Part shown: piece by piece, positions 2,374 to 59,448 of the stretch
How positions within the stretch are numbered: position 1 is the first letter of the stretch
Layout: every line of letters begins with the position of its first letter
DNA from: Candidatus Poribacteria bacterium
GTDB lineage: Bacteria; Poribacteria; WGA-4E; WGA-3G
Length of the DNA stretch: 64,000 nt
Direction of reading: 5' to 3'
Assembly (NCBI GenBank): GCA_026706025.1
Contig: JAPOZO010000011.1
Coordinates: 1-64,000, forward strand
Translations under genes and position numbers: made by a program
The notes under the pieces: generated by a model
Seen by the model: only the letters and a program-made list of their open reading frames with translations
What the model was told of the DNA's origin: nothing
Database searches by the model: none

Positions 2374-3345
2374 ATGTCTTTGAATCTTGGAGAACTGCGT
2401 GGGTTCACAAAGGACTGGGGCCCGAAAATGGTCTCGGATACCTTTTTCAACCAGCACGTTCTACTAAAATCGATGGAATCTGTCCGTCAGACGTATCCTG
2501 GCGGTGATTTTATACGCCTCCCCTTAAACGTCAGAGGCGATAGAAACGATCAGACCGGGCGCGCACTCGGCTATACAGAATCTTTTGACTTCCCGAAGCT
2601 CGAAGTCGGTGATGTTGCGAGATTTGAGCCGAAGATGGAGGTCCAAGTCGTCGTCATTTGGGACTACGAGGTTGCGAAGAACGGTGCCTCGGATGTCCAG
2701 TATGCAGATCTCGTGCAAAACCGTATCTCCTGGTACATGAAACTCATGGCGGATCGGAAAAGCCGGTATCTCTACGGTCGCGGTGGCAACACCACACGTC
2801 CTAACGGTTTGATTGATGTGTTCGATAACACAGCGAAATTCGGTCAGATTGACCGCACCAAAGCACCGACCTACCGTTCGTTCCATAAGACCGCATCTTC
2901 TCCGCGTGGCATAAGCCGTGCGTTGCTTACTGAGTCGCTGATCGATGTCTGGGATGGCGCGAAGAAACCGGACATCGGGATCACGACACCAGGCATCTGG
3001 GCGAAGATTCATTCGATCCTGATGCGCGATGAGCGGTATCCGAACACCGCGCTGGCGGCTGCCGGGTTCACGAACATCACATTCATGGGCGTACCCATTG
3101 TCTTTGATAAAGAGCGTCCTGTGAAATCCGCCACTCAGCATTCGTTGGATTGGTTGAACTTCGACCATCTCAGGGATTATGCGTGTGAAGGCTTCAATAT
3201 GCGTAGACACCCCTGGGCGCGGATGCCTCAAAACACTGGACAATATGAAGTGATTGTCAACTTCGGCAACTTCTGCAGCGATAACTTGCGCTACGAGTGC
3301 CGACTCGACGATCTCGATCCAAGTGTACTCACTGCGGCTGCGTAA
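2374..3345 (+). CDS. major capsid protein
   Basis: This is a 323-residue mixed alpha/beta protein with the composition of an HK97-fold coat. It has an N-terminal helical arm (MSLNLGELRGFTKDWGPKM), an E-loop-like region around residues 45-85 rich in charged and Gly residues, and a C-terminal block with FMGVPIVFDKE and YEVIVNFGNFCSDNLR, as in P-domain/A-domain segments. The start is the ATG after GGTATGATAAAGA; upstream spacing to the scaffold gene is 48 nt. It follows portal and scaffold genes and precedes a putative decoration gene. No protease gene is visible, so maturation may rely on scaffold exit alone, as in P22; that is inference. Confidence 0.8.
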   Translation: MSLNLGELRGFTKDWGPKMVSDTFFNQHVLLKSMESVRQTYPGGDFIRLPLNVRGDRNDQTGRALGYTESFDFPKLEVGDVARFEPKMEVQVVVIWDYEVAKNGASDVQYADLVQNRISWYMKLMADRKSRYLYGRGGNTTRPNGLIDVFDNTAKFGQIDRTKAPTYRSFHKTASSPRGISRALLTESLIDVWDGAKKPDIGITTPGIWAKIHSILMRDERYPNTALAAAGFTNITFMGVPIVFDKERPVKSATQHSLDWLNFDHLRDYACEGFNMRRHPWARMPQNTGQYEVIVNFGNFCSDNLRYECRLDDLDPSVLTAAA

Positions 3346-35061: not shown

Positions 35062-35228
35062 CTCAGCCACAAATGGGAAAAAACATGAAAAAACTCACGG
35101 ATATTTACTTTGGTTTTGAAGATATGCTGATAGGATTAGGGTATAGCGGTTCCGAAATCGGATACCTGTGGGCAGAATATGCAGAGAAGTATTTACCAAA
35201 ATTACTCCAAAAGGCGGGCAATGAATAA
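35058..35228 (+). CDS. 56-residue helical micro-protein
   Basis: MTQPQMGKNMKKLTDIYFGF begins a small helical protein with GYSGSEIGYLWAEYAEKY. It starts in an ATGA overlap and ends in TAATG with the giant gene, so it may act as a coupling ORF for that gene's translation. No family. Confidence 0.6.
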   Translation: MTQPQMGKNMKKLTDIYFGFEDMLIGLGYSGSEIGYLWAEYAEKYLPKLLQKAGNE

Positions 35229-38200
35229 TGGCAACCCTACGCGAATATCTCACCCCAGCAGAACAGGAACGGTTTAAGAAGCTCTACAACCAGGGCTACT
35301 TTAACCAGATCACGTTCAACCAGTTCACACAACGGTTGGGTCAAGAGTTTCAGTATATCGACATGCTCCAAAAGCAGTTAGACCGCACTGTTGGCGAGGT
35401 GAAACGGTTTAGCCCGGAGGATGTCAAGCGATGGAACTACGATCAGGTGATTGCGCAGAACAGAGACAGGATCGCCAAGTTACGGGCGGGTGCGTTTGAT
35501 TCGGCACTCTCTGGCAACCTCGGCGGTCGCACGCGCCGCGCACTGCAAGACCTCGATCGCGCCATGCAGGTCGATGCGGATGGCAACCTCACCGTGCCGA
35601 GCATTCCCGGTATCCCGCCGATCTTTAAGCCGGAATCCGAGAAGACGGTCATGGATGTTGCGTGGGACAAGTACTGGGAAGATCAAGGGGTTGTCAGAGG
35701 CGCGTTGAATGTCGGTGCAAGCAGTCTAACAGGCCCGATTCGTGGCGGACAACAGCTACTCTCCGGTGAAGGACTCGGCGAGAACCCGCTCGAAGCTGTG
35801 GCAGAGATCGGTTCGATTCTCCCGGTCGCACGCGCATTCGGACGCTGGGCACCGCCGGGCAGTCTTGTCTCAAAAGCCGTACGGAGTCCGTTATGGAAAG
35901 CACCCTCCTACACGACACAGGCTGCTGATATTCTTGGTGCCGGTGAAGAAGCACACCTTGAAGTCTTGGCGGAGGGCGGCCTGGAAGCGATCGGTGCTGG
36001 CGGCGATTTGGTGAGACATTTAAGAAGCCGTAAACTCTTCCAAGGGTTAGATCCGCAAGCTGCTGAAGACGCACAGACGACTGAATCCACCACTGAACAC
36101 GACGATCTTACCGGCTCACGCACTGCGCCGGGAACACCGGGGCTTTCGCCAGAAGCGGCGCGTGCTGCAGATCGTGCCGCGGCAGACTCCGCGGTGGAAT
36201 CTGCAGACGCACAGGTGGCGTTAGATACCGCCACACAACAGCGACAGGAATCGTTAGATCAGCAATTACGGCGTGAGGCCTGGGAACGGATGCTCATCGA
36301 GGCAGAGGCACGCGAAGCCGCGGAAGCAGAACAGGCTGCGATTGAACAATCCTTTATCGACCAAGACGACGCATACACACAGCAACAAGCCGACGCGGAA
36401 CAGGCTGCCGCAGAACAACAGGTATCTGAAGCCGAGAAAATCGAATTCACCAAGGCATGGCTCCCGTTCTATGCGGATCTCGCAGGCGGTTCGCAATCTG
36501 AAGGGATCCGGTTGCTGAATGCGGAATACGATGCCGGGGTCCGAAACCCTATATCTCACCGCTATGACCAGATCGCCGCCGGGCTACAGGAACAGATGGG
36601 GGTTGTGCCGTCCCAACTGCATCAGGAGGCAGATAGACGCTTACGGCAACAGATCGGCGAGAAATGGTATAATATCTATCGTGGGATAGACCAGCGACCG
36701 ACACCCCAACAACGCGCCCAACGCGCAAATGAAGCTGCAGATAAAATTGTGGAGGGAACAGATGGACAACCGACAGTGGACGGACAAGGAGATACAGACG
36801 TTTCTAAAGGAACGGACACAGCAGTTGATGGAGATGTCAATGGAACGGCAGCTACAGCACCTGACACACCAGGAACTACAGAAACGATCCCAGAAGCCCG
36901 CATCGGAACAGAGAACACAGGCTACGAATCCGACGGCGTAACCGCACATAATGTGCGTCCTGTGCTGCGTGAGTTAGATGATCTTGTGCCGTCCCACCAG
37001 TTGGATGGCGAGAAACGCGAGGATTACCCCGAAGACCTTCAGCCCCGTGAAGGGCGTGGCGGCGCGATCTCGATGTCGCAGGTCCGCAAAACCGCACAGC
37101 AGCCGAACTTCGCATTCTTACTGGAGTTTTTCAAACAGTTTCGTGATGGCGCGCCCGTCACCAGTAAGAAACACCCGCGGCGGATACTTTCTGGGAACGG
37201 TCGCACCCTCGCTTTACAGCTGATGCGCAATGAATACCCGGAAAACTGGCAAGGTTACCAGGACGCGCTTCGGGCGGAACTCGAAAAGGTCGGGATCGAC
37301 CCTGCTGAGGCAGACGCGATGGAAGCCCCTGTGTTGACCTATGAAATCCTGGACGACATCGATGAAGTGGCACTCGCCAAAGATGCGAATGTGCAAGCCA
37401 CGCTGGATCACACCGCTGCGGAGCAAGCCTCGCAAGACACGGAATACTTTGATGACGACTTGATGGCACTCTGGCAACCCGGTGAAGGCAGTTTTGAAGA
37501 GGTGTTGACGAGCGAGGAAAACCAGCAGTTTCGGTCTACACTTTTTAGCCGTATCCCAACACACCTCGTTTCAGCGTTTATGACCGCGGATAACAAAAGT
37601 TTCTCGAATGACGGGATTCAACGTATCCAGAACGCCATGATCCGGTATGTGTTCGGTGAAAGCATTGGTGACCAGCTCGCAAAGGTTTTGATTGAACAGG
37701 GGCTTGAGGATGTCAAAAACATTGAAGCGATGCTCCGCAATGCCATCGCCTCGCTCGCCTATGCGAAAGCAAACGGGCAGGATATTTCCACCCAACTCGC
37801 GTCTGCGATCTTTCGGTTCATTGAAATCAATAAAAACGCTGAACGCGACGCACAGCAACGCAAACAGCCCAAAGATGTGATGCTCTATGCCGGTATCGAG
37901 GCAGTCTATCAGTCTGGCGCGCTCATCGAGGCACCCACACTCCTTGAAAAACAGCTGCTCTATCTGATATACGCCAAACGCAACGCACCCCGCCAACTCG
38001 CAGATGATTTCCAAGCGTGGGCACAAACAGCCGTATCGAGAGGACGGGAAACCGATCAAGGCGGACTGTTCAACGATGCAGCGATTTCAGAAGCCATTTT
38101 CGCAGGGATCATACGCGAATACATCCGCGAGACGATCTTTGCGACCCGCACCACACAAGACGGGCAGACGGTGTTAGTGCCACCCGATAGCCTGCCACCG

Positions 38201-41200
38201 GAGTTAGTGCGTTTGCGCGAAAATATGGACGCAATGTCGGATGCCGCAGATAAAGAACGTCTCGCAAACGACTGGATAGACGCTTTCCTACGCGCCATGA
38301 ACGAAGGGGAAACACAAAATGAAACAGCCACAGAAGACGCAACAACCGACACAGCAGTGGCACGATCAGGTTCGGGAACACCAGGAAGCACAGAGCCAGA
38401 TCCATCTCAAGGAACAGCTGATCGAGACGCTACCGGCACTCCAGCAACACCCGAAAGTGGTGGCGGCGGAGTGGCCCCAACACAGCCACAAGGAACTGAT
38501 AGCGATGAGTCTGGAAGAGCTGATGGAGCTGCGGATGATATACAACCAGACGATCGAGGCTCAGATTTAGGTGTTGAAAACGCACTCGGCATCGTTTTCC
38601 CCGGTGAAAACATCACGGCTTCGAGTTGGAACAAAGCCTCAAGAACATCGAAGCGACGGTCGTTGGCGCGCGCGGAACGGGCAGGCAACGACGCTGTCAC
38701 CGAGGCGATATTCAATGCCGCGGTCCGATACCTGGAGCGAAATATCGACGGAATCACACAGGAGACACCCGATGGATCTACAGAAACGGACACAGCAGAT
38801 GCTACAGCGTCACGTGATGCACTGGATAGAAACGATGAACCAGAAACGCCGATCGACACCAACCAAGTCGTCGGTGTCAGCCGTCGCACCGAAACCCCCA
38901 CAGAATCCAGCGTCTCGCCCATCGTGCAGCGCGACTTGGACGCGCTCGGCATCAGCGTCGCGGAATGGGAACGGATGAAAGCCGACGGTGAAGCGATAGA
39001 CTTCATCAACAATCTCACCCCGGAACAACAGGAACAGGTCGAGTGGGCTGTGAATTTGACAGCAGATGTTGCTGGCGAGATGCCGGACGCTGAGATGGTC
39101 GATGAAGACCTCGATATTGACGAAGACGAAGACTTCTTCAACGATGCCGGTATTCTGCGCGATATTACCGATCAGCAACGTTCCGATTTCGATACCGTCC
39201 GTCGGAAGCTCTTTTTGGCGAGAACCATCGAACGCCTCGAAGCGAAACAGGATCGGACCCCGATCGAAACGGCACAGTTACGGGCACTCCAGGCACCGCA
39301 ACGCACCGACGCGCAGCAAGAGATTTATGAACGGCTGCTCAATGCCTTCGTGGATCAGCAGGTAGCACGGCTTCAAGCGAAACAGCAACGCTCGGTAACC
39401 GAAAACCGTATCCTCGACGCGTTGACCGCGGTACAGGCGGAAGGACTCCCCGAAGAAGCCTCAGAGTTATCGCTCTACGCTGATCTGGAGACACCCGACC
39501 AGGAACACAGCCGTCCGCTCGCCGAGACGCGTACGCTCGCAGGCGTGCAAGCACCTGCGACTGCCGACACAGACCTCGACCTCCCGGAGACTGTCAAGAC
39601 AGACACAACAAAACTCTCACCGGCACAGCAGTCGAGTGTCAAAGCGATTATCGCAGCGTTTTTGCGTAAAATCCATACGGGCACCGATACGACCGTGCAA
39701 GGCGGTTTCCTGCTTGGGGATAAACCCGGTGTCGGTAAAACGCGCCAAGCGTTGGCAACGCTCTGGCACTATATGCGTCAAGGCATCAACAGACACTTTG
39801 TCCTCGCCCCGAATGAACAGCTACTCAACAACTACAGCACCGACATGCAGGCAATGGGCGGTCGGGTTGACGACATCTCACGCTACTCTTCCAGCAACCA
39901 GCAGTTCGACACACCCATCGGCACGGCGACCTATTCGATGCTTACCCGGAAACCGGACTTGAAAAACTTCACAACGACAGCGGGCAACCAGAACGCCATC
40001 GCCGACATCGTTGCGCATCTCACCGGTGCGCGTCCGACACTCCAACAGACGCATCCAGAGACGTATCAGGCATCGCTTGAAGCGTTCTCGCGGCTTGGTA
40101 TCTCTGACGTGGCAGGCGCAAACGCTGTTGAGGTGTTCAATAACATCGTAGCAGAACTCCGCAGGCAAGCCGGACGTGTTGTTCTCGATAACCCCGCGAA
40201 CGTCGAACAGTTCCGCCAACGCGTGACACCGCGCCTCGCCGATCTCTTGCTTGCGGAACGCACACAACAGGAAGGGCAACAGGAACTCCTGCCGGGCACA
40301 GAACTCCAGGAACGCGTAAAACAGTTGCTAAGGTTTGCACAGACACACATCAACGCAGACCCCGACCCCGACTTCGATGCGAAAGCGGCAGCGTTTCAAG
40401 GCGTGATTGTCCTCGATGAGATGCATAAAACGGCAGGCACGAGCTCACAGATCGGGCAGATGATCGCCACACTCCACCAGTTGCTCCCGAACGCGAAATT
40501 CTTGTATATGTCCGCAACACCGTTTAAAGAGATCGACAATTTCTGGGTCGCGGAACGGTTGGGCTTGTGGGGTGCGAACCAGCCGTTCTCAAATTTCCGG
40601 CAGTTTCGATCCGCTTTCAGACGCGCCGCACGTGCCGTAAAAGAGGTGATCCCGCTCCACCTGAAACAGATCGGACGGTATGTCTCGCGGGCGTTATCGT
40701 CGAAAGAGACACGGTATACGCCGGTCGAAATCCCGCTCACCGACACCGAGAAAGCGCAATACGATGCCGCCGTGGCGTTTGTGCAGGGCATCCGTCAGGA
40801 GTTTGAAAGCGCGCTCGACGCAGGGCTGCGCACGACGTGGGGCAGCCTATTGGAAGCGGACGGTGAACACGGGAAGTACCGCGGCAAGTATATGCGGATG
40901 TTCTACGGCGAGATCCAGAAAGTGTTTCTCGCGGTCCTCGATGCGATGAAAGCACAGGGGCTGGAGACGGATCTCCGGGAAAAACTCCAAAACGGCGATA
41001 AGGTGATCGTGCAACTCGAAAACACCTGGGAAGCGACCACCGAACGCGCAGAAGCCCGCGGACAAGACACTGCCGGCCCCTTCGATCTGCTCATCGATTT
41101 CGTTGCCAACGAGAACACGTTCCCCGTACATGAACACATCACAGAAGTGCGCACGCGTCGCGACGGCTCCGAATATACGGTTGTTGTGCCACGGATGGAA

Positions 41201-44200
41201 TACGACGCAGACGGGAACACCGTTCGCGTTATCGACCCGACCCTGAAACGTCTCCAGACAGAACTCTTGAGTTTGATTCAAGGTCAGATACAGCAGATAG
41301 AGAGCCTCCCTTTCGCCGCAGACATTATCCACCAGATCGCCGCCGATGCCGGTATGGCTTCCGGCGAGATTTCGGGACGCGCCAACACTGACCGCGAGGC
41401 ACTCGCAACGGCGTTCTCGGAAACCACGGATTTGAACCTCATCGTGCTGGGACCCGCAGGACTCACCGGTATTAATCTCCCCGTGAAGGATGTCATCAAA
41501 GATAAAGTCAATAACCTTTTTCATTACCTGGTGCAGTCGTCATGGAATGTGAACACCTTTGAACAGGGTTTGGGCAGAGGCAAACGGTCGAACTCAGCGA
41601 TCGATCCGCAATACCAGGTCGTCTATCAGGATCTACCCGGTGGGGATCGTGTGTTAGGCGCGACACTCGCGAAATTCGCAGAGATGGGCGCGCTCGCAGG
41701 ACAGGCAGATAACGCCTTGATGCAGAACATCGACAAAGTGGAGGGACAAACAAGCCTCGACGATGACCCGGAAGCCGATGTGTTTGAGGAGACGCAGGCA
41801 GGTGAACGCGGGCATGTCTTCGGCGTACACGGACAAGAGGCACTCGCGCAGCTCTGGAAGGATATGTATGATACGGGTGAATTTGAAATCGCCGATACGC
41901 TTGGACTCGACCGCCCCGAAATCGCAGGAGATACAGGGTTTATTGACACGGACACAATTCCGACGGTGCAACAGTTTTTCCAGCGGTTATTGCATCAATC
42001 GACGACAGAGCAGCCCCGTCTCTATGAACAGTTTGAATCGCGCCTGAAACGGATTGTCGCCTACAGGCGCGAGTTGGGTGAGTTAGATGTCGGCGCGAAT
42101 GATCTGAATTCTAAAGATGGGCAGGTAACCGATAGGCTCACGATCTACACCGATCCCGATACCGGTCAAACCGCAGAAGTCGTGCGGTTGGCGGTGAAAC
42201 GGAAACTCCCGCGCCGGAGTTGGGACTTCGTACAGAAAGTCATCAACGGCGAACAGGGCTACGAACACTACGGTCGCACCTTCGCAGGGATTTATACCGA
42301 TGCCGATGGTCACGTCTGGGCGGTCTTTGAAGCACCGCTCCGCAAAGGCGCATCGGAAACGGAATATGTCCGTTGGGGCCCCCGCGGTACACCCGTTCAG
42401 GGGATCCATACAGGTGAACACCGGTTGACCGAGGGAGAACTTGCATACGACTTTAAGCATATCGCTGATATGCGAGAAGGGCAACAACTCTGGGAAGCAG
42501 AAGACACAACGGCGGATGCGTATGTCGATTCTGAGATGTTCATGGCAACCGGGTTGATCCTCCCGAAATGGCAAGACCTTTCGACACAGAACACACGACA
42601 CGCCGTGATGGGTGTGATCCCGATGCTCGATGGCAGTCAGTTGCACGGTCGGGTGATCCCGTCTGGCGTGTTGCCTGAAGTGCTTGAACAGATCGGCGGT
42701 GTCGATCCGAATCATTTTGACGCGACACAAACACCTGATGCAGAGGCTCCGCCAAATGGCGAAGGGTCAGATATAGATATTCCGGCAATCGTTCGCGATA
42801 TTATCGGACAGCAGACGGACACCAAAATCGCGGCACGGCTGGAACGAATCGCCGAGCACATCCACAAGAAACTACCGCTCCGGTTGCGTGGGCATCTCGT
42901 GAAAAGTGCTGCCGAAGCTGCATTGCTTGGGCAACTCATTCGGGATCCACAGGTCGAACATACCTGGATTGTTTACAGGAAAAACGACAGGATTGTGAAG
43001 ATCGAGCCGATGAGCCTCAACCGCAAAGGTGAGACGAAAGCCGGTGACTTTGCGCATATCAAAAGAATGGCTGCCAAGGAAAAAGCCGATAGCATTCTGC
43101 GTATCCATAACCATCCGTCGGGCGTTGCGAAGTGGTCCGACCCAGATAAACGCGCCGCTATGCAATGGCATAAAGAACTCGGCACGCTCATGGCAGAAGA
43201 TATTATCGTCGATTCCGGCACTTACGCCTACAGAACCTTTGAAAACGGTGAGTATACGTGGCATGAAGATACCGTGTTAGATCCGGGTGCTGTAGAATTT
43301 GATACCAGCGCAGCGGCGGTCTCGGACCCTTCGGGTGAAGTCAAGCCGACCGATCCGCTTTACCAGAACCCGCTCATCCGCGGGGCGCGCGAAGCAGCGA
43401 CCTATATGATGGGCATCAAACGGCGCACATCGGATGTGGCGGAACTGATTTTTGTGGATAAAAAGACCGGGAAAATCGTGGATGCGTGGACAGATACCAC
43501 ACTGCGCGGTGGCGGGACAGACCCCGTACAGTATATCAAAGATGCTTTCGCGGTGCGTCAAGGACAGCAGGTGCATATCGCGATGTGGGGCGATGACGCA
43601 GCAGTTTCCCTTGCACGCTCACTACAAGCGATTGATGGCGTGGATTCGGTGTGGGTAAATTCACAGCGTGTGACAGGGATTGACCATATCGGTCAGCAAG
43701 GAGACCCAGATACCCGCACACAAGAACAAAAAGAAACGGATGCAATCCTCAACCGCACGCTTGAAAGGCTTTCCGGTAAAGAGCAGCCCGGCACAAAACG
43801 CAAAGGTCAAGACACACTCGAATCACCGAGACCCTATAAGACGATCCCGAAAAAAACAGTTGTTGAAGCAAATAAACTCAGTGCTTCACAAGAGAAACAA
43901 CTACAAGGTGAATTGAAGACTTTTGTAAAACACAGGGTTGCCGAAGTATCAGAGGGATGGGACAACAAACGACTCAGACAGAAAATTCAGAAAATCATAG
44001 ACAAAATCCATCCATATCGCCTCTACCAAGCGTACACCATATATAGTAACATAAAAGCAATAGAAGAGGTTTATTACGCAGACAGATCCCGCGAGTGGAG
44101 AGAAATTCTCCAAAACGCAGTCGAACGCACGAAAATCAAAGACAGGTTCTTTGAGGTAGAAGATATTGCAGTTCGGGAAATAGCAAGTGCGTTTGTTCAC

Positions 44201-47200
44201 GCATCTAATCCGCTTTCAGGTTTCCAAGAAGAAGCTCGGGCAATGAATCGAAATGTTGCAGAAATGTTTGGAGATTTGGAACTGCTCCGAACACCTGAAG
44301 GACTACTTGTGACGCGCGTGATTGACGGTCAAAAGTTTTATCTCACGCCCTTAAGCGAAAATGAACTCACAGGGGTCGTCGAGTTTGATGAGATGACACC
44401 CGACGAACAAACGGCTGTCAAAGCATGGCTGGATAAGATTAAAAGCGATCCGCGCTCCACCAACGATCAAATGGGGGGCGCAGGCACGCTCAACCCGATT
44501 ACAGACACGATCTCCGCACGACTGATGCATGTCCCTGGCACCATGAAGATAGAGTATGTCCAATCACCGACATATCCTGCCGAACACAACATAAGACACC
44601 GTCGTTCTATGGCAGGGGATGTGAGTGCTGCGATTTACAATTCCAATAAGTTGCTTGCTTCTCGACATGTCGCGACAACCACAAAATCAAACTGGGATGC
44701 AGTCACAGACAACGCCGACTTTGTGTTCCTCGCACCTGTAGATCGCCGGTATAGCGGTGATGAAGGGTATGCGTTTGATGCAGAGCACCTTATCCGAAAG
44801 AAAGGCGCAGTTGTCGGGACAACAGATTCGATTATGTTCTACGATGCACTCGTTGAAAGGATTGTCTATGAAGAACTCGGACGCAGTAAAACATCTGGCG
44901 ACATTGACAAACTTGCGGAAGCCGCGAATACCGGTGCAGAGACCTTTGAAGGCGCACAACGCATCCTGCAGCGCATCAAAAACGAAATCGGTGATGTCGC
45001 GGAAGGCTACCGTGTCGCTGGTGAAGACGCTATTAAACTGCTCCATGAAGGCAAAGCTGCTGAAATCCTTGTGCCGGGCGAAGTGTCGCTCGACGATCTG
45101 CTGTATATCAGAATTAATAACAAACCTTACGGACTCGTCCAAGCGACAGATGCGGAATCGACTGTCGATGAAAGCAATGAACAGCAGCTGCTCTCTGACT
45201 ACACCGCAGAAGTCCAACGCACCAACCCCGACTCGGTGGTATATCGTGTGCATGCACCCGAAGACCTCGCCATGGAAGGTCGCGGTCGCGCCAAGACCGC
45301 AGAGATCGGTGAAAAAGCACTCAACACGTTTGTCGATTCTAACGCCGGTATCATGAAAATCTTGAGAGCCTGGTCCCCAACGGCGCGTCGCTGGGCACGG
45401 ATGACGAAAAACGAATTCGTCTCCGGGTTCGGAAAACTCACAGAACTCGAAGCCCCCGAAGGTTCGGATACCCCCTCACCCGCCGATGTGCTCAAAGAGA
45501 TTTTGCGTGAACGGCAGCACATCTCGAAACTCAATGCCGGGCGTGCGTTATCGACACTTGAACCGCATCTGCTCGCGTTCAATAAACTCGCCCGCAAACG
45601 TACAAGCCTCCGCACCGAAGTCGTCGCACCGAAAACCCGGACATCGACACGCAAGAAACTCTCAGAAAAGGTCTGGAACTTCATCGAGTATAACACCCCG
45701 ATCGAGAACGATAAGGAACTGCTTGATCTCGCAGAAGGGTTAAAGGAAGCCTGGCGTGAGATGTTGATCCACGACACGCAGAAGATCGTTGAACTCATGG
45801 GCGAACTGGAGAATATTAACGAGAAGCTCTATGTAACCGATGCTGCAGGGAAACAGGTAGAATGGTACGGTGAGTCCTTTGACGGCTTCCAATGGGATGC
45901 AGAACGCAGAGGTTACGTCAAAGACGGAAAATTCTACACCATCGAGGAAGCGCACAGGGCAGCGAACAAACTCTATATGCCCCACTATTTTAGAGGCAAA
46001 TCGCCTTTACAGGAATACTCGGCACTCCAGAAAATGCAGGACGACCTGAATAAACTGCTCGCCTCTGATGACCCCGCTGCAGAAAAAGAGCTCCTGCAAC
46101 GTTTTGAGATCGAAATCGATCCCGGTGGGTTCTTGTATACACACCTCCCGACGGGCAAAACCGCCACGACCGCTTACGAGATGGTTCGCATCGTCGCAGA
46201 CCACGTCGCGAACGAGGACGCAGCCTTACAGGGTATTCTGAACTATTATGAGGGCGAAGGGCGCGTCGGCTACTACGGACACCTGGAACGCACCCGTGAG
46301 ACGGACGATCGGTTCTATGCGCGCGATATTTCACTGATGGCAGAAAACCGGATGCGGTTATGGGATCGTTTGGCGGAAGTCGCAACGATCGGACAGCAGC
46401 ACCCGCTCATCGGGGACTCGCCGCGGATGAAAACGCTCATCGAACAGGTGATGAACTTCGATAAAACACCCCGTGAAGCCGCGCTTCGGAAAGTCATCGA
46501 GGCTCTGAATTCCGGGCAAGAAGGTATGTTTGAACGGATGCCACAGTTTGCCTCCGGTGTCGAGACAGCTTTGGATATTATGCTACACTGGCTCGAACGC
46601 GATGCCGACGGCAAGAAAACGGGGCGTTACCAGGAGATAGATATTGCGCGGATGAACCTCGATGATGCAACTTTATCAGAATTGGAACGCATCGGGCTGA
46701 TTGAACAATCTAACGGGAATTGGAAGGTTGTCGGTGAAAACATCGACCAACGTCACGCAACGATGGCACGGCATATCCATGAGTTTTACAATACGCTCGC
46801 ACAACGGAAAAACGCGGTGCATTCGGTCGTCTTGGGGCTTGGGAATTGGCATACCCGGGATCCGCTGGAAATGGAATCGTCAGAGTTTTGGAAGAAGATC
46901 AACGATACAATCACAGTGCTAACGCTGAACCACGGTGTTGCGATCCAGAACCTTTTAGAGATACCACTGATCTCGATGCTCACCGGTGCCAACCCGCTTT
47001 TCAAAGGACTGCGGAACATGTCGAACAAAGAGTATCGAGGACAGATGCAACAGCTCGCACGCGGGTTGAGCCATGCCCGGAAATTTATGGCGGACACAAC
47101 GCTCGCGGACAAATACCTCGGCTCCCGGTGGACATTTTTCTCGAAATCCGATGAGTTTAGCAGAGCTTCTGGCTTAGGCATCGGCTTAGAGAACGCCAAA

Positions 47201-48028
47201 GCGAAAATCCAGCGATACGCCGAAGCGGAAGGCAAAAAGCGAGATGCGATCGGCCGCGAGATGGACACAGTGCGGTTAAATCAGGAGGTGATCGCAAATA
47301 TACCGGCGGGACAGCTCACACAAACGCTCGCAGCCGCAGAGGAGCTGATCTTGAATAACGAGGTGGACACAGTGTTTTCGTCCGAACAGGGCGGTGAACT
47401 GACACATGCGGAACGGCTCGCGGGCACGATGCTCCGCTCGATGTTCTATATTTCTGACGAAGCCTTCAAGCAGTATGATGCCACCAGCCTACCGCAGTTT
47501 ATGTTGTCGAAAAACCCGCTTATCCGGGTGTTCATGAAATATAAGTCTTGGATGCTCCAGCAGAACAGGTTGGTCTACAACCAACTCCGCCGCGCCTATC
47601 GGGAAGCGAAGCAAGGCAATCTCGAACCGCTTGGCAACTTCGTTGCCGCGACAGGCATGATGGGACTCGGTACCGGGGGGCTGCTCTGGCTCTATTCTGC
47701 CTTACAGGGCGATGACGACGATAAGACGATGCTGGATCGGATGTTCAAAGGGCTTGCCGCGGCACAAAGTCTTGGGATCGCCTCGGTGATGTTCGAGTTG
47801 GCGATGTATGCTGAAGGGAACTGGTATCAGATGTCGAACCTCTTGGCGAAACAAGCCGCGGGCCCAACGTTCTCGGTCGCTGCACAGATGATCGGACCGG
47901 TGTTGACTGGCGACTTCGAGCGTGCTGGCACGGAAGCACTCCGCAGGCTGCCGATCGTGAGTTTCTCACGGCGTGTTGGGGGCTGGCGATTGCTTGAGGA
48001 AGCGACGGGCACCGGAGAGAAGGAATAA
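35228..48028 (+). CDS. giant polyvalent virion protein (ParB-like, Strawberry-notch-type helicase, JAB/MPN domains)
   Basis: This 4266-residue single frame has the architecture of phage polyvalent proteins (Iyer and colleagues), which are ejected with the DNA. Visible parts: helical N-terminus; a ParB/DdrB-like domain at about 560-950 with SMSQVRKTAQQPNFAFLLEF and ILSGNGRTLALQLM; an SF2 helicase at about 1460-2160 with Walker A GDKPGVGKT (1497-1505), DEMH (1730-1733), SATP (1762-1765) and EQGLGRGKR (2112-2120), close to Strawberry-notch helicases; a RadC/JAB-like domain with HNHPSG (2627-2632); uncharacterised middle; and a hydrophobic C-terminal segment. Acidic Thr/Gly-rich linkers separate domains, and three host +1-frame ORFs. 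It probably clears or protects incoming DNA and counters host defences (inference). Confidence 0.82.
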   Translation: MATLREYLTPAEQERFKKLYNQGYFNQITFNQFTQRLGQEFQYIDMLQKQLDRTVGEVKRFSPEDVKRWNYDQVIAQNRDRIAKLRAGAFDSALSGNLGGRTRRALQDLDRAMQVDADGNLTVPSIPGIPPIFKPESEKTVMDVAWDKYWEDQGVVRGALNVGASSLTGPIRGGQQLLSGEGLGENPLEAVAEIGSILPVARAFGRWAPPGSLVSKAVRSPLWKAPSYTTQAADILGAGEEAHLEVLAEGGLEAIGAGGDLVRHLRSRKLFQGLDPQAAEDAQTTESTTEHDDLTGSRTAPGTPGLSPEAARAADRAAADSAVESADAQVALDTATQQRQESLDQQLRREAWERMLIEAEAREAAEAEQAAIEQSFIDQDDAYTQQQADAEQAAAEQQVSEAEKIEFTKAWLPFYADLAGGSQSEGIRLLNAEYDAGVRNPISHRYDQIAAGLQEQMGVVPSQLHQEADRRLRQQIGEKWYNIYRGIDQRPTPQQRAQRANEAADKIVEGTDGQPTVDGQGDTDVSKGTDTAVDGDVNGTAATAPDTPGTTETIPEARIGTENTGYESDGVTAHNVRPVLRELDDLVPSHQLDGEKREDYPEDLQPREGRGGAISMSQVRKTAQQPNFAFLLEFFKQFRDGAPVTSKKHPRRILSGNGRTLALQLMRNEYPENWQGYQDALRAELEKVGIDPAEADAMEAPVLTYEILDDIDEVALAKDANVQATLDHTAAEQASQDTEYFDDDLMALWQPGEGSFEEVLTSEENQQFRSTLFSRIPTHLVSAFMTADNKSFSNDGIQRIQNAMIRYVFGESIGDQLAKVLIEQGLEDVKNIEAMLRNAIASLAYAKANGQDISTQLASAIFRFIEINKNAERDAQQRKQPKDVMLYAGIEAVYQSGALIEAPTLLEKQLLYLIYAKRNAPRQLADDFQAWAQTAVSRGRETDQGGLFNDAAISEAIFAGIIREYIRETIFATRTTQDGQTVLVPPDSLPPELVRLRENMDAMSDAADKERLANDWIDAFLRAMNEGETQNETATEDATTDTAVARSGSGTPGSTEPDPSQGTADRDATGTPATPESGGGGVAPTQPQGTDSDESGRADGAADDIQPDDRGSDLGVENALGIVFPGENITASSWNKASRTSKRRSLARAERAGNDAVTEAIFNAAVRYLERNIDGITQETPDGSTETDTADATASRDALDRNDEPETPIDTNQVVGVSRRTETPTESSVSPIVQRDLDALGISVAEWERMKADGEAIDFINNLTPEQQEQVEWAVNLTADVAGEMPDAEMVDEDLDIDEDEDFFNDAGILRDITDQQRSDFDTVRRKLFLARTIERLEAKQDRTPIETAQLRALQAPQRTDAQQEIYERLLNAFVDQQVARLQAKQQRSVTENRILDALTAVQAEGLPEEASELSLYADLETPDQEHSRPLAETRTLAGVQAPATADTDLDLPETVKTDTTKLSPAQQSSVKAIIAAFLRKIHTGTDTTVQGGFLLGDKPGVGKTRQALATLWHYMRQGINRHFVLAPNEQLLNNYSTDMQAMGGRVDDISRYSSSNQQFDTPIGTATYSMLTRKPDLKNFTTTAGNQNAIADIVAHLTGARPTLQQTHPETYQASLEAFSRLGISDVAGANAVEVFNNIVAELRRQAGRVVLDNPANVEQFRQRVTPRLADLLLAERTQQEGQQELLPGTELQERVKQLLRFAQTHINADPDPDFDAKAAAFQGVIVLDEMHKTAGTSSQIGQMIATLHQLLPNAKFLYMSATPFKEIDNFWVAERLGLWGANQPFSNFRQFRSAFRRAARAVKEVIPLHLKQIGRYVSRALSSKETRYTPVEIPLTDTEKAQYDAAVAFVQGIRQEFESALDAGLRTTWGSLLEADGEHGKYRGKYMRMFYGEIQKVFLAVLDAMKAQGLETDLREKLQNGDKVIVQLENTWEATTERAEARGQDTAGPFDLLIDFVANENTFPVHEHITEVRTRRDGSEYTVVVPRMEYDADGNTVRVIDPTLKRLQTELLSLIQGQIQQIESLPFAADIIHQIAADAGMASGEISGRANTDREALATAFSETTDLNLIVLGPAGLTGINLPVKDVIKDKVNNLFHYLVQSSWNVNTFEQGLGRGKRSNSAIDPQYQVVYQDLPGGDRVLGATLAKFAEMGALAGQADNALMQNIDKVEGQTSLDDDPEADVFEETQAGERGHVFGVHGQEALAQLWKDMYDTGEFEIADTLGLDRPEIAGDTGFIDTDTIPTVQQFFQRLLHQSTTEQPRLYEQFESRLKRIVAYRRELGELDVGANDLNSKDGQVTDRLTIYTDPDTGQTAEVVRLAVKRKLPRRSWDFVQKVINGEQGYEHYGRTFAGIYTDADGHVWAVFEAPLRKGASETEYVRWGPRGTPVQGIHTGEHRLTEGELAYDFKHIADMREGQQLWEAEDTTADAYVDSEMFMATGLILPKWQDLSTQNTRHAVMGVIPMLDGSQLHGRVIPSGVLPEVLEQIGGVDPNHFDATQTPDAEAPPNGEGSDIDIPAIVRDIIGQQTDTKIAARLERIAEHIHKKLPLRLRGHLVKSAAEAALLGQLIRDPQVEHTWIVYRKNDRIVKIEPMSLNRKGETKAGDFAHIKRMAAKEKADSILRIHNHPSGVAKWSDPDKRAAMQWHKELGTLMAEDIIVDSGTYAYRTFENGEYTWHEDTVLDPGAVEFDTSAAAVSDPSGEVKPTDPLYQNPLIRGAREAATYMMGIKRRTSDVAELIFVDKKTGKIVDAWTDTTLRGGGTDPVQYIKDAFAVRQGQQVHIAMWGDDAAVSLARSLQAIDGVDSVWVNSQRVTGIDHIGQQGDPDTRTQEQKETDAILNRTLERLSGKEQPGTKRKGQDTLESPRPYKTIPKKTVVEANKLSASQEKQLQGELKTFVKHRVAEVSEGWDNKRLRQKIQKIIDKIHPYRLYQAYTIYSNIKAIEEVYYADRSREWREILQNAVERTKIKDRFFEVEDIAVREIASAFVHASNPLSGFQEEARAMNRNVAEMFGDLELLRTPEGLLVTRVIDGQKFYLTPLSENELTGVVEFDEMTPDEQTAVKAWLDKIKSDPRSTNDQMGGAGTLNPITDTISARLMHVPGTMKIEYVQSPTYPAEHNIRHRRSMAGDVSAAIYNSNKLLASRHVATTTKSNWDAVTDNADFVFLAPVDRRYSGDEGYAFDAEHLIRKKGAVVGTTDSIMFYDALVERIVYEELGRSKTSGDIDKLAEAANTGAETFEGAQRILQRIKNEIGDVAEGYRVAGEDAIKLLHEGKAAEILVPGEVSLDDLLYIRINNKPYGLVQATDAESTVDESNEQQLLSDYTAEVQRTNPDSVVYRVHAPEDLAMEGRGRAKTAEIGEKALNTFVDSNAGIMKILRAWSPTARRWARMTKNEFVSGFGKLTELEAPEGSDTPSPADVLKEILRERQHISKLNAGRALSTLEPHLLAFNKLARKRTSLRTEVVAPKTRTSTRKKLSEKVWNFIEYNTPIENDKELLDLAEGLKEAWREMLIHDTQKIVELMGELENINEKLYVTDAAGKQVEWYGESFDGFQWDAERRGYVKDGKFYTIEEAHRAANKLYMPHYFRGKSPLQEYSALQKMQDDLNKLLASDDPAAEKELLQRFEIEIDPGGFLYTHLPTGKTATTAYEMVRIVADHVANEDAALQGILNYYEGEGRVGYYGHLERTRETDDRFYARDISLMAENRMRLWDRLAEVATIGQQHPLIGDSPRMKTLIEQVMNFDKTPREAALRKVIEALNSGQEGMFERMPQFASGVETALDIMLHWLERDADGKKTGRYQEIDIARMNLDDATLSELERIGLIEQSNGNWKVVGENIDQRHATMARHIHEFYNTLAQRKNAVHSVVLGLGNWHTRDPLEMESSEFWKKINDTITVLTLNHGVAIQNLLEIPLISMLTGANPLFKGLRNMSNKEYRGQMQQLARGLSHARKFMADTTLADKYLGSRWTFFSKSDEFSRASGLGIGLENAKAKIQRYAEAEGKKRDAIGREMDTVRLNQEVIANIPAGQLTQTLAAAEELILNNEVDTVFSSEQGGELTHAERLAGTMLRSMFYISDEAFKQYDATSLPQFMLSKNPLIRVFMKYKSWMLQQNRLVYNQLRRAYREAKQGNLEPLGNFVAATGMMGLGTGGLLWLYSALQGDDDDKTMLDRMFKGLAAAQSLGIASVMFELAMYAEGNWYQMSNLLAKQAAGPTFSVAAQMIGPVLTGDFERAGTEALRRLPIVSFSRRVGGWRLLEEATGTGEKE
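36762..36941 (+). CDS. nested +1-frame ORF 1 inside giant gene linker
   Basis: The 59-residue ORF is in the +1 frame of the giant gene. ATG is preceded by GGAGGG at good spacing. The product begins MDNRQWTDKEIQTFLKERTQ and continues as a Gln/Glu/Leu helix (MEMSMERQLQHLTHQELQKR). The main frame here is a Thr/Gly/Asp linker using almost only GGA for Gly, unlike the rest of the gene, as expected if the +1 frame is constrained. Not proven to be translated. Confidence 0.4.
   Translation: MDNRQWTDKEIQTFLKERTQQLMEMSMERQLQHLTHQELQKRSQKPASEQRTQATNPTA
38319..38570 (+). CDS. nested +1-frame ORF 2 inside giant gene linker
   Basis: The 83-residue ORF is again +1 to the main frame, with AAGGGG about 9 nt before ATG. 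Its product is Gln-rich (MKQPQKTQQPTQQWHDQVRE) and then strongly helical (HKELIAMSLEELMELRMIYN). The main frame is a Ser/Gly/Thr/Asp linker. Like ORF 1 it carries a QW and a Gln/Glu/Leu helix, suggesting a related product. Confidence 0.42.
   Translation: MKQPQKTQQPTQQWHDQVREHQEAQSQIHLKEQLIETLPALQQHPKVVAAEWPQHSHKELIAMSLEELMELRMIYNQTIEAQI
38772..38978 (+). CDS. nested +1-frame ORF 3 inside giant gene linker
   Basis: The 68-residue ORF is in the same +1 frame as ORFs 1 and 2. AGGAG lies 8 nt before ATG. The first half, MDLQKRTQQMLQRHVMHWIE, is helical and resembles the LKERTQQLMEM part of ORF 1. The second half is Pro/Ser-rich and may be a fortuitous extension. Confidence 0.35.
   Translation: MDLQKRTQQMLQRHVMHWIETMNQKRRSTPTKSSVSAVAPKPPQNPASRPSCSATWTRSASASRNGNG
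42744..42767 (-). repeat. dispersed palindromic repeat, copy 2 (inside coding sequence)
   Basis: Reverse complement of the 24-nt element at 52353-52376 (24 of 24 identical) and one mismatch from 21571-21594. In the giant gene it is read in frame, encoding APPNGEG within a linker, so the element inserted or arose without breaking the frame. Confidence 0.75.
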
Positions 48029-56193: not shown

Positions 56194-56916
56194 TTACTTC
56201 GCCACACCCGTGACGTTATACCCGCGCTTGGCGAGTTCCGCAATCAGCGAATCATCGCTGGCACGGTGTACCGGTGTGGCTTGTTTCTTCTCTGTGCCTG
56301 CGACAAGCACAGACATCAGTTCGAGAGCTTCGCGTACTTCGGCATAATTGACACCGAGATACTTCTGTGTTGTGGCAACATTCTTGTGTCCGAGCATCTC
56401 TTGGACAACAAAAATATCGTTGGTTTGTGAATACAAGCGTTGCGCGAACGATTTACGCATCGAGTGCGTGCCGAGCTTACCGTTGAGTCCTGCCTTGTCA
56501 AACGCTGCCATGAGCGCGTCGCTGCCTGCCTGCGTGGTCATCCGCTTGGGTGTCCCATTTTTGTTCTTGACGCGTGAGACGAACAGCGGTGTGTCCTTAT
56601 CGACTGCGCCGAACAGCCCTGCCCTTTCCGTGTGCCATGCCATGATGTCTAACACCGCAGCCCGACCGTCCGCATTTAGCGGTACCGCGCGAGCCACCTC
56701 GCCACCTTTGACGATCTCCTTGTTGTAAAGCACATCTTTAACAGGCTTGTCGTTCTGCCACACATCGCCGATGGTGAGCGATAAGAGCTCATCAATGCGT
56801 CCACCGATGGAAACACCTAACAGAAACAGCGATCGGTTACGGATAGCGAACTGTCCCTCAAAAGATTCTGAAACCGCTTTGATTTCTGCGTTGTCAAGGG
56901 GTCGTGTGCCTTTCAT
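56194..56916 (-). CDS. tyrosine recombinase, catalytic domain only
   Basis: The 240-residue protein has all six catalytic residues: Arg40 (GGRIDEL), Lys70, His151 and Arg154 (HSMRKS), His177 (GHKN) and Tyr186 (KYLG). There is almost no N-terminal core-binding (SAM-like) or arm-binding domain, unlike full phage integrases (usually 300-400 residues). It may work with an accessory DNA-binding protein, act as a resolvase, or be a truncated integrase. C-terminal HRASDDSLIAELAKRGYNVT looks like an added dimer or regulatory tail. Coupled to a gene downstream of the P_L1 promoter. Confidence 0.8.
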   Translation of the reverse strand: MKGTRPLDNAEIKAVSESFEGQFAIRNRSLFLLGVSIGGRIDELLSLTIGDVWQNDKPVKDVLYNKEIVKGGEVARAVPLNADGRAAVLDIMAWHTERAGLFGAVDKDTPLFVSRVKNKNGTPKRMTTQAGSDALMAAFDKAGLNGKLGTHSMRKSFAQRLYSQTNDIFVVQEMLGHKNVATTQKYLGVNYAEVREALELMSVLVAGTEKKQATPVHRASDDSLIAELAKRGYNVTGVAK

Positions 56917-58392: not shown

Positions 58393-58473
58393 CTAAATAA
58401 AACCTTCTTCCTTGAGTGAAACGAAAATCCCATCTCCGATCACGATGTGATCTAATACCTTGATGCCGATCTA
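58393..58473 (-). other. in-frame RadC C-terminal continuation beyond an amber codon
   Basis: After the stop (TAG, complement of 58471-58473) the frame continues IGIKVLDHIVIGDGIFVSLK and ends EEGFI, then TAG. This matches the RadC C-terminus (family LDHIIIGDG-type ending). A single base change (from TTG or CAG) would restore a full-length protein. Confidence 0.75.
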
Positions 58474-59448
58474 GTTGCCTGCTTCTATCAACTGCTTTGT
58501 CGCCCTGATGTCCTCCTGTGATGGCTGCGGATCGCCTGATGGGTGGTTATGTGCCAACACGATAGAATTCGCGCTTTCCTCTATGGCAAATCTGAAAATC
58601 TCGCGCGGGTGGAACACTGAAGCGTTTAGCGTGCCTTCAAATACGGTTGTTTCGTTTAGCACCTTGCCCCACTTCAAGTCACTGGCAATCTCGCCCGCTT
58701 TGCCTGTGCTGGTAACACCGCCCTTTGTATCAAGTGCCAACACGACAACGATTTCTTTCTGAAGATACCGCAATTTAGACATAAGCAGTTCGGCGACATC
58801 GCTCGGCGCGGTGATCTTCGGTTTCTCGGCATGGAACCGCGCAAGTCGCTTGCCTAACTCAAACGCTGCCGCTATCTTCTCGGATCGCGCTTCGGTCAAG
58901 TTCGCGATCTGCTGCAGCTGCTTCGGTGTGCTGTTCGCCATGCGCGCAAGGTTGTTTTCATAAGAGACAAGCATTTCCTCAGCAACGACCAACGGCGCGC
59001 CGCTCACTTTCGCGAATAACTCTGTATCGCTCCAGTGTTCAATATCGCGCTGTTTCGCCTTGCCCCTGATCTCTGAGAGTATCCGCTTTTCGGCGGCTGC
59101 TTCTTCCTTTAGCGTTCTCGCTTCCGCTTCGGCTTCGGTCTTCGCGTCAACCTCGCCCTTGACTTCCTCCACAAACCAATCTGGCGCGATCGGCTCAAAA
59201 GTCCGCTCTCGGTAGATCGCACGCTGTAAGTCCTCAAGGTCGATCAGTCCGTTCAAGTCATCAGCAACACCGCCGAAATGCACGCTGATCTGCTCGTGTT
59301 CCGCGCCTGTTTCCTCGTCAATCTCCGAGTAGCCCGAAAACTTGACAATCTCCACTTGTCGCTGTGCCTGTGTATCAAACAGAATATGCCCAATATCCAA
59401 GTCATCAACGCCTTCGTCAAAGCGCGCTTGCGATAATTCTATACGCAT
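58471..59448 (-). CDS. radC: RadC-like JAB/MPN protein, ended early by TAG
   Basis: The 325-residue protein has an acidic N-terminal extension (about 120 residues), a HhH-like region (SDTELFAKVSGAPLVVAEEM and EARSEKIAAAFELGKRLA) and the JAB+ motif AHNHPSGDPQPSQEDIRATK. Its missing C-terminal 25 residues are present after an in-frame TAG (58393-58473). SD AAAGGAT precedes ATG. RadC proteins are JAB-fold, and their exact role in phages is uncertain. The metal motif is intact, so it may still function, or translation may read through the stop. Confidence 0.75.
   Translation of the reverse strand: MRIELSQARFDEGVDDLDIGHILFDTQAQRQVEIVKFSGYSEIDEETGAEHEQISVHFGGVADDLNGLIDLEDLQRAIYRERTFEPIAPDWFVEEVKGEVDAKTEAEAEARTLKEEAAAEKRILSEIRGKAKQRDIEHWSDTELFAKVSGAPLVVAEEMLVSYENNLARMANSTPKQLQQIANLTEARSEKIAAAFELGKRLARFHAEKPKITAPSDVAELLMSKLRYLQKEIVVVLALDTKGGVTSTGKAGEIASDLKWGKVLNETTVFEGTLNASVFHPREIFRFAIEESANSIVLAHNHPSGDPQPSQEDIRATKQLIEAGN

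Follow-up and report, generated by a model that had tools for sequence, protein, structure and literature searches.

A probable overprinted gene nested in the giant DdrB-like polyvalent gene of a temperate phage

Within the gene for a 4266-residue polyvalent protein of a temperate phage, we identified a wholly nested reading frame of 83 codons, here termed ORF2 (38319-38570, plus strand), which on comparative sequence evidence is probably a real overprinted protein-coding gene. ORF2 lies in the +1 frame relative to the giant gene, runs from ATG to TAG (38568-38570), and is preceded, 9 nt before its start, by the Shine-Dalgarno (SD)-like sequence AAGGGG (38304-38309, plus strand). It is one of three +1 frames on the plus strand for which an overprinted origin had been proposed, the others being ORF1 (36762-36941; 59 codons from ATG, with the SD GGAGGG at 36751-36756) and ORF3 (38772-38978; ATG, with the SD AGGAG at 38760-38764). 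For all three, the stated positions, the relative frame, the ATG codons and the SD-like sequences before them were confirmed. Only ORF2 has the look of a second gene: its start, stop and protein sequence are all retained in a related phage.

The giant gene, its phage and its relative

The window, that is, the whole stretch of 64,000 nucleotides analysed here, derives from contig C11 of a 6.27-Mb bacterial assembly with a temperate phage on board, and includes phage genes for a P22-like portal (1-1434), a major head protein (2374-3345) and an integrase (56194-56916). The giant gene occupies 12.8 kb (35228-48028, plus strand). Its protein possesses a ddrB-ParB domain located between the ORF1 and ORF2 linkers (PF18763; 36947-37336, plus strand; Pfam E=2.9e-14, above the curated cut-off), together with AAA_34 and Helicase_C_4 domains of the Strawberry-notch type (PF13872 and PF13871) and a Pfam RadC match just below cut-off, and its ParB region matches P1 DdrB at 26%. 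Given the ddrB-ParB domain, the AAA_34/Helicase_C_4 pair and the near-cut-off RadC match, the protein qualifies as polyvalent as PMC5512222 uses the term, of the DdrB-like type, and its phage is a temperate one with a P22-like portal. By the precedent of P1 DdrB, as described in the same source, the giant protein would be packaged and injected together with the DNA.

Two further features of this region were observed. A separate minus-strand gene (58471-59448) ends in a RadC/JAB domain, in addition to the RadC-like stretch of the giant gene. Also, positions 43838-44700 of the giant gene display a foreign-looking codon choice, and their counterpart in the relative aligns poorly; the segment resembles a swapped domain, and the atypical codon window at 43868 was rejected as a candidate overlap on that ground.

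Only one close relative was found in the collections searched, IMGVR_UViG_3300033058_000221, which is the same contig as WTGF01000045.1 (L001/L006) and encodes a giant protein of 4275 aa with 71% identity over aligned positions. Additional near relatives were sought with the ParB region, the helicase, the head protein and a motif from the main frame, as well as among genome contigs; only this same 70-kb contig came back, along with distant giants at 32-38% that lack ORF2 and a 17.5-kb fragment. With one close relative in these collections, all conservation tests depend on a single pair of phages.

Open +1 frames and linker composition

The original prediction had taken the three frames to reflect overprinting rather than chance, a view that their openness does not bear out. 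When synonymous codons were permuted, the stretch remained open in 23% of trials for ORF1, 80% for ORF2 and 6% for ORF3, and the number of +1 ORFs of at least 59 codons with SD and ATG in 36700-39000 (three, versus 1.39 expected) corresponded to P=0.10. Stops in +1 are rare here because they need T at main-frame codon position 2, which is scarce in a hydrophilic linker. Openness was therefore rejected as evidence for overprinting; since composition explains the open frames, the window sequence alone cannot decide. Although ORF2 is no longer than such shuffles give, excess length is not a strict requirement for a nested gene. Composition bias, which had been named as the main alternative, thus accounts for why the three frames are open, yet leaves the conservation of ORF2 described below unexplained. 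The words shared among the predicted products (KERTQQ and KRTQQ) are present, but derive, as read from the sequence, from a repeated main-frame word, TDTA. The reported preference for GGA over ORF1 was borne out, with this codon used for 8 of 10 Gly residues versus 18% across the gene.

Conservation and codon choice of ORF2

At the position of ORF2, the relative L001 possesses a +1 ORF of 81 codons whose product shares 56% identity with that of ORF2, LQQHPKV and WPQHSHKEL being among the identical runs; the product predicted from the window includes the peptide VVAAEWPQHSHK. The ATG start becomes GTG in L001, which can still serve as a start and alters Asn to Ser in the main frame, and the TAG stop becomes TAA at the same site, while the upstream AAGGGG region is preserved (AAGGGGAGG in the relative). 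Of the features expected of a nested gene, ORF2 therefore shows a complete ORF with a start and ribosome-binding site, and a start and stop kept in one relative. Similarity of the linker falls off right after the ORF2 stop, with 24% amino acid identity from 38588.

Main-frame synonymous change is reduced over the same segment. Among main-frame codons with an unchanged amino acid, 39 of 47 are identical, where the remainder of the gene predicts 25.1+-3.2 (z 4.4), and main-synonymous change per site is 0.193 compared with 0.547 gene-wide, a 2.8-fold reduction. Frame-specific conservation was examined by permutation over six frames, re-dealing the observed substitutions randomly over same-base sites in the well-aligned part (38370-38570); +1 was the best conserved, with z=3.12 (P=0.0004), compared with 1.82 for the main frame and 0.17 for +2. 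The +1 frame was also best conserved with BLOSUM45, with PAM250 and in both directions (z 2.1-3.2, P up to 0.015). In a scan of 326 windows along the giant gene, those over ORF2 took the top rank in +1, and the lowest main-frame z of the scan also fell in one of them. The antisense frame a0, which has the same wobble position as +1, scores 3.69, nearly as high as +1, and its ORF ends are not kept. By a plain count of substitutions, NN/NS over ORF2 is 1.10 (95% 0.55-2.4), not below 1, so that purifying selection in +1 is visible only through conservative replacements; because this count shows no +1 selection, the step to +1 constraint is moderate, not strong. In the relative, the combination that had been proposed as a check, reduced synonymous change with selection in +1, applies to ORF2, for the +1 part by permutation and not by the plain count, but not to ORF1 or ORF3.

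Codon choice provides a further line of evidence. The main frame over ORF2 has the most atypical codon choice of the giant gene in both phages (z -5.9 and -4.5). The +1 codon usage of ORF2 is genome-like in the window phage (z -0.34), reaching only -2.03 in L001, and a window overlapping ORF2 has the highest value of all +1 windows (z 0.29; mean -2.43, sd 0.99). By the codon criterion of PMC8227390, this suggests that in the window phage ORF2 is older or better adapted as a frame and the linker is the more recent reading, as though two domains had been fused over a small gene that survived in the other frame. We regard codon choice as support rather than proof, because the putative swapped domain at 43868 is also atypical and because the two phages share ancestry, for which reason their odd codon choices are not independent.

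The alternative that survives best, although we consider it improbable, is that there is no overlapping gene, and that the ORF2 linker was exchanged by recombination later than the rest of the gene and is neutral in every frame, giving low and flat divergence, with +1 open by composition. Flat substitution rates over SN, NS and NN sites (about 0.2 each) are consistent with such an exchange, as are the high proportion of shuffles in which composition keeps ORF2 open (80%) and an analogous near-identical patch in a distant pair of giants (G018/L012). Neutral drift, however, would neither raise +1 similarity (P 0.0004, and up to 0.015 over matrices and directions) nor account for a main-frame codon choice more atypical than anywhere else in the gene, and third-position divergence just upstream is near normal. 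Synonymous suppression by itself names no frame, and could reflect constraint on DNA or RNA, such as a structured RNA or a binding or packaging site, rather than on protein. We judge this a good deal less probable, given that RNA folding of the segment does not surpass that of shuffled sequences in the two phages (z 0.55 and -0.53), that conservation tracks +1 amino acid similarity, and that insertions and deletions come in multiples of three where the alignment is good. Ribosomal frameshifting into +1, yielding an alternative C-terminus for the N-terminal part of the giant protein in place of internal initiation, appears least probable of all: +1 is already open shortly before the ATG, from 38301, but this upstream overlap is six codons only, ORF2 has an SD and a start codon (kept as ATG/GTG), and inspection by eye revealed no slippery site.

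The reading we favour is of an overprinted gene: ORF2 would be translated in +1 from a ribosome-binding site internal to the giant gene, at a place downstream of the DdrB-ParB region whose main-frame product is a disordered linker. Ribosomes may start at AAGGGG-N9-ATG on the giant mRNA, and a small helical protein would then be made alongside the giant protein, late in infection. Judging from position only, this product, encoded on the giant gene's own message, may act on the giant protein as its partner or regulator; a partner of the injected polyvalent protein is its likeliest, albeit conjectural, role. An AlphaFold2 model built from the two sequences predicted helices at residues 12-42, 45-49, 57-62 and 65-80 (pLDDT 88, pTM 0.70), and a Foldseek search with this model returned nothing at E<=0.001. 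Since ORF1 alone also gave a confident single predicted helix (pLDDT 84), the model lends weak support, and helical potential was rejected as evidence given this high pLDDT for ORF1 and a weak helix-propensity signal (z about -2). Searches of PHROGs, Pfam and PDB sequences, and tblastn searches of phages, viral contigs and 85 genomes of the phylum, found no ORF2 homologue beyond the one relative.

The two other frames fared differently. ORF1 has the same SD and ATG in both phages (36762; 3771 in L001), and together with ORF2 constitutes the only two SD+ATG +1 ORFs of at least 59 codons in the L001 giant gene. Main-frame codon choice over ORF1 is also atypical in both phages (-2.5 and about -4.9). 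Its SD and ATG, however, sit within a conserved main-frame word, EGTD; the ORF1 proteins of the two phages are unlike each other, conservation tests are flat, and the number of identical main-frame codons (16 of 23, versus 13.6 expected; z about 1) is not unusual. ORF1 is a possible nested gene, though less likely one than not, and would at most represent a fast-evolving second case. The frame of ORF3 is open from 38571, with 135 codons available from a GTG directly after the ORF2 stop, so that 38772 is one possible start only. Similarity of ORF3 to the relative in +1 is borderline (P=0.02), and 25 of 37 main-frame codons are identical, versus 22.1 expected, which is not significant. With normal main-frame codon choice, a synonymous z of about 1 and a different end in the relative, ORF3 was rejected as a nested gene; it is probably a chance open frame arising from composition, and very unlikely to be a real gene. 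Within the ORF3 linker we also noted a short segment around NQVVGVSRR (38828-38888) whose DNA hardly differs between the two phages, with 13 of 14 shared codons identical, although its flanks have diverged; it is a possible motif or processing site.

Distant giants, polyvalent proteins and known overlapping genes

A long +1 frame was also observed in distant giants (G018/L012; 32-38% in the ParB region), where a 191-codon ORF with SD and ATG lies in a Gly/Ser/Pro linker (L008, G018:C3:53912-54484, minus strand, within the locus G018:C3:47000-63500; also in L012/L019). Among synonymous shuffles, 0 and 0.2% leave this frame open (P 0.006 and 0.022 for the longest run), values that apply to an ORF picked post hoc. 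Homologues of it were sought and none were found, and conservation between G018 and L012 is uninformative because the region is near-identical (10 differences in 585 nt).

As a speculative extension, which we hold only tentatively, linkers of giant polyvalent proteins might be former small genes, their flanking domains having been fused by read-through in a new frame, with some of these genes still alive in +1. ORF2 would then be one such survivor, and perhaps ORF1 and perhaps the 191-codon ORF of the G018/L012 giants would be further candidates. If the overprinting is real, annotation of giant phage polyvalent proteins overlooks small proteins that share a message with them, the "disordered" linkers of these giants may be a by-product of the second frame, and a checkable route to the assembly of multidomain phage proteins is provided.

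With regard to known systems, the giant gene resembles those of polyvalent proteins and P1 DdrB as treated in PMC5512222, possessing a DdrB-like ParB domain, a Strawberry-notch helicase and phage virion genes nearby. This likeness concerns the host gene, and the consulted part of that source makes no mention of nested sense-strand genes. P1 iddB is, like ORF2, annotated within a ddrB gene; it lies antisense in the ParB-homologous part (L003 6402-6800), whereas ORF2 is sense, and iddB was rejected as a counterpart given its opposite strand and lack of relation.

Overlapping genes are already well known in phages, including E within D of phiX174 and Rz1 within Rz of lambda, and ORF2 would add a nested case. 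It resembles known overprinted genes in being small, wholly nested in a shifted frame, equipped with its own start and ribosome-binding site, and predicted to encode a product without homologues. It differs in that its host is a 4266-aa polyvalent protein, in that the overlap falls in a disordered interdomain linker, and in being known from sequence alone. Overprinted viral genes have been reviewed (PMC8227390), and one case described there, polymerase/S of hepatitis B virus, offers a model for the evolutionary route only, the virus and its proteins being unrelated to those considered here. As with ORF2, the overlap there falls between the domains of a protein that has several, and codon usage was argued to indicate a short gene that formerly lay between two genes (PMC8227390).
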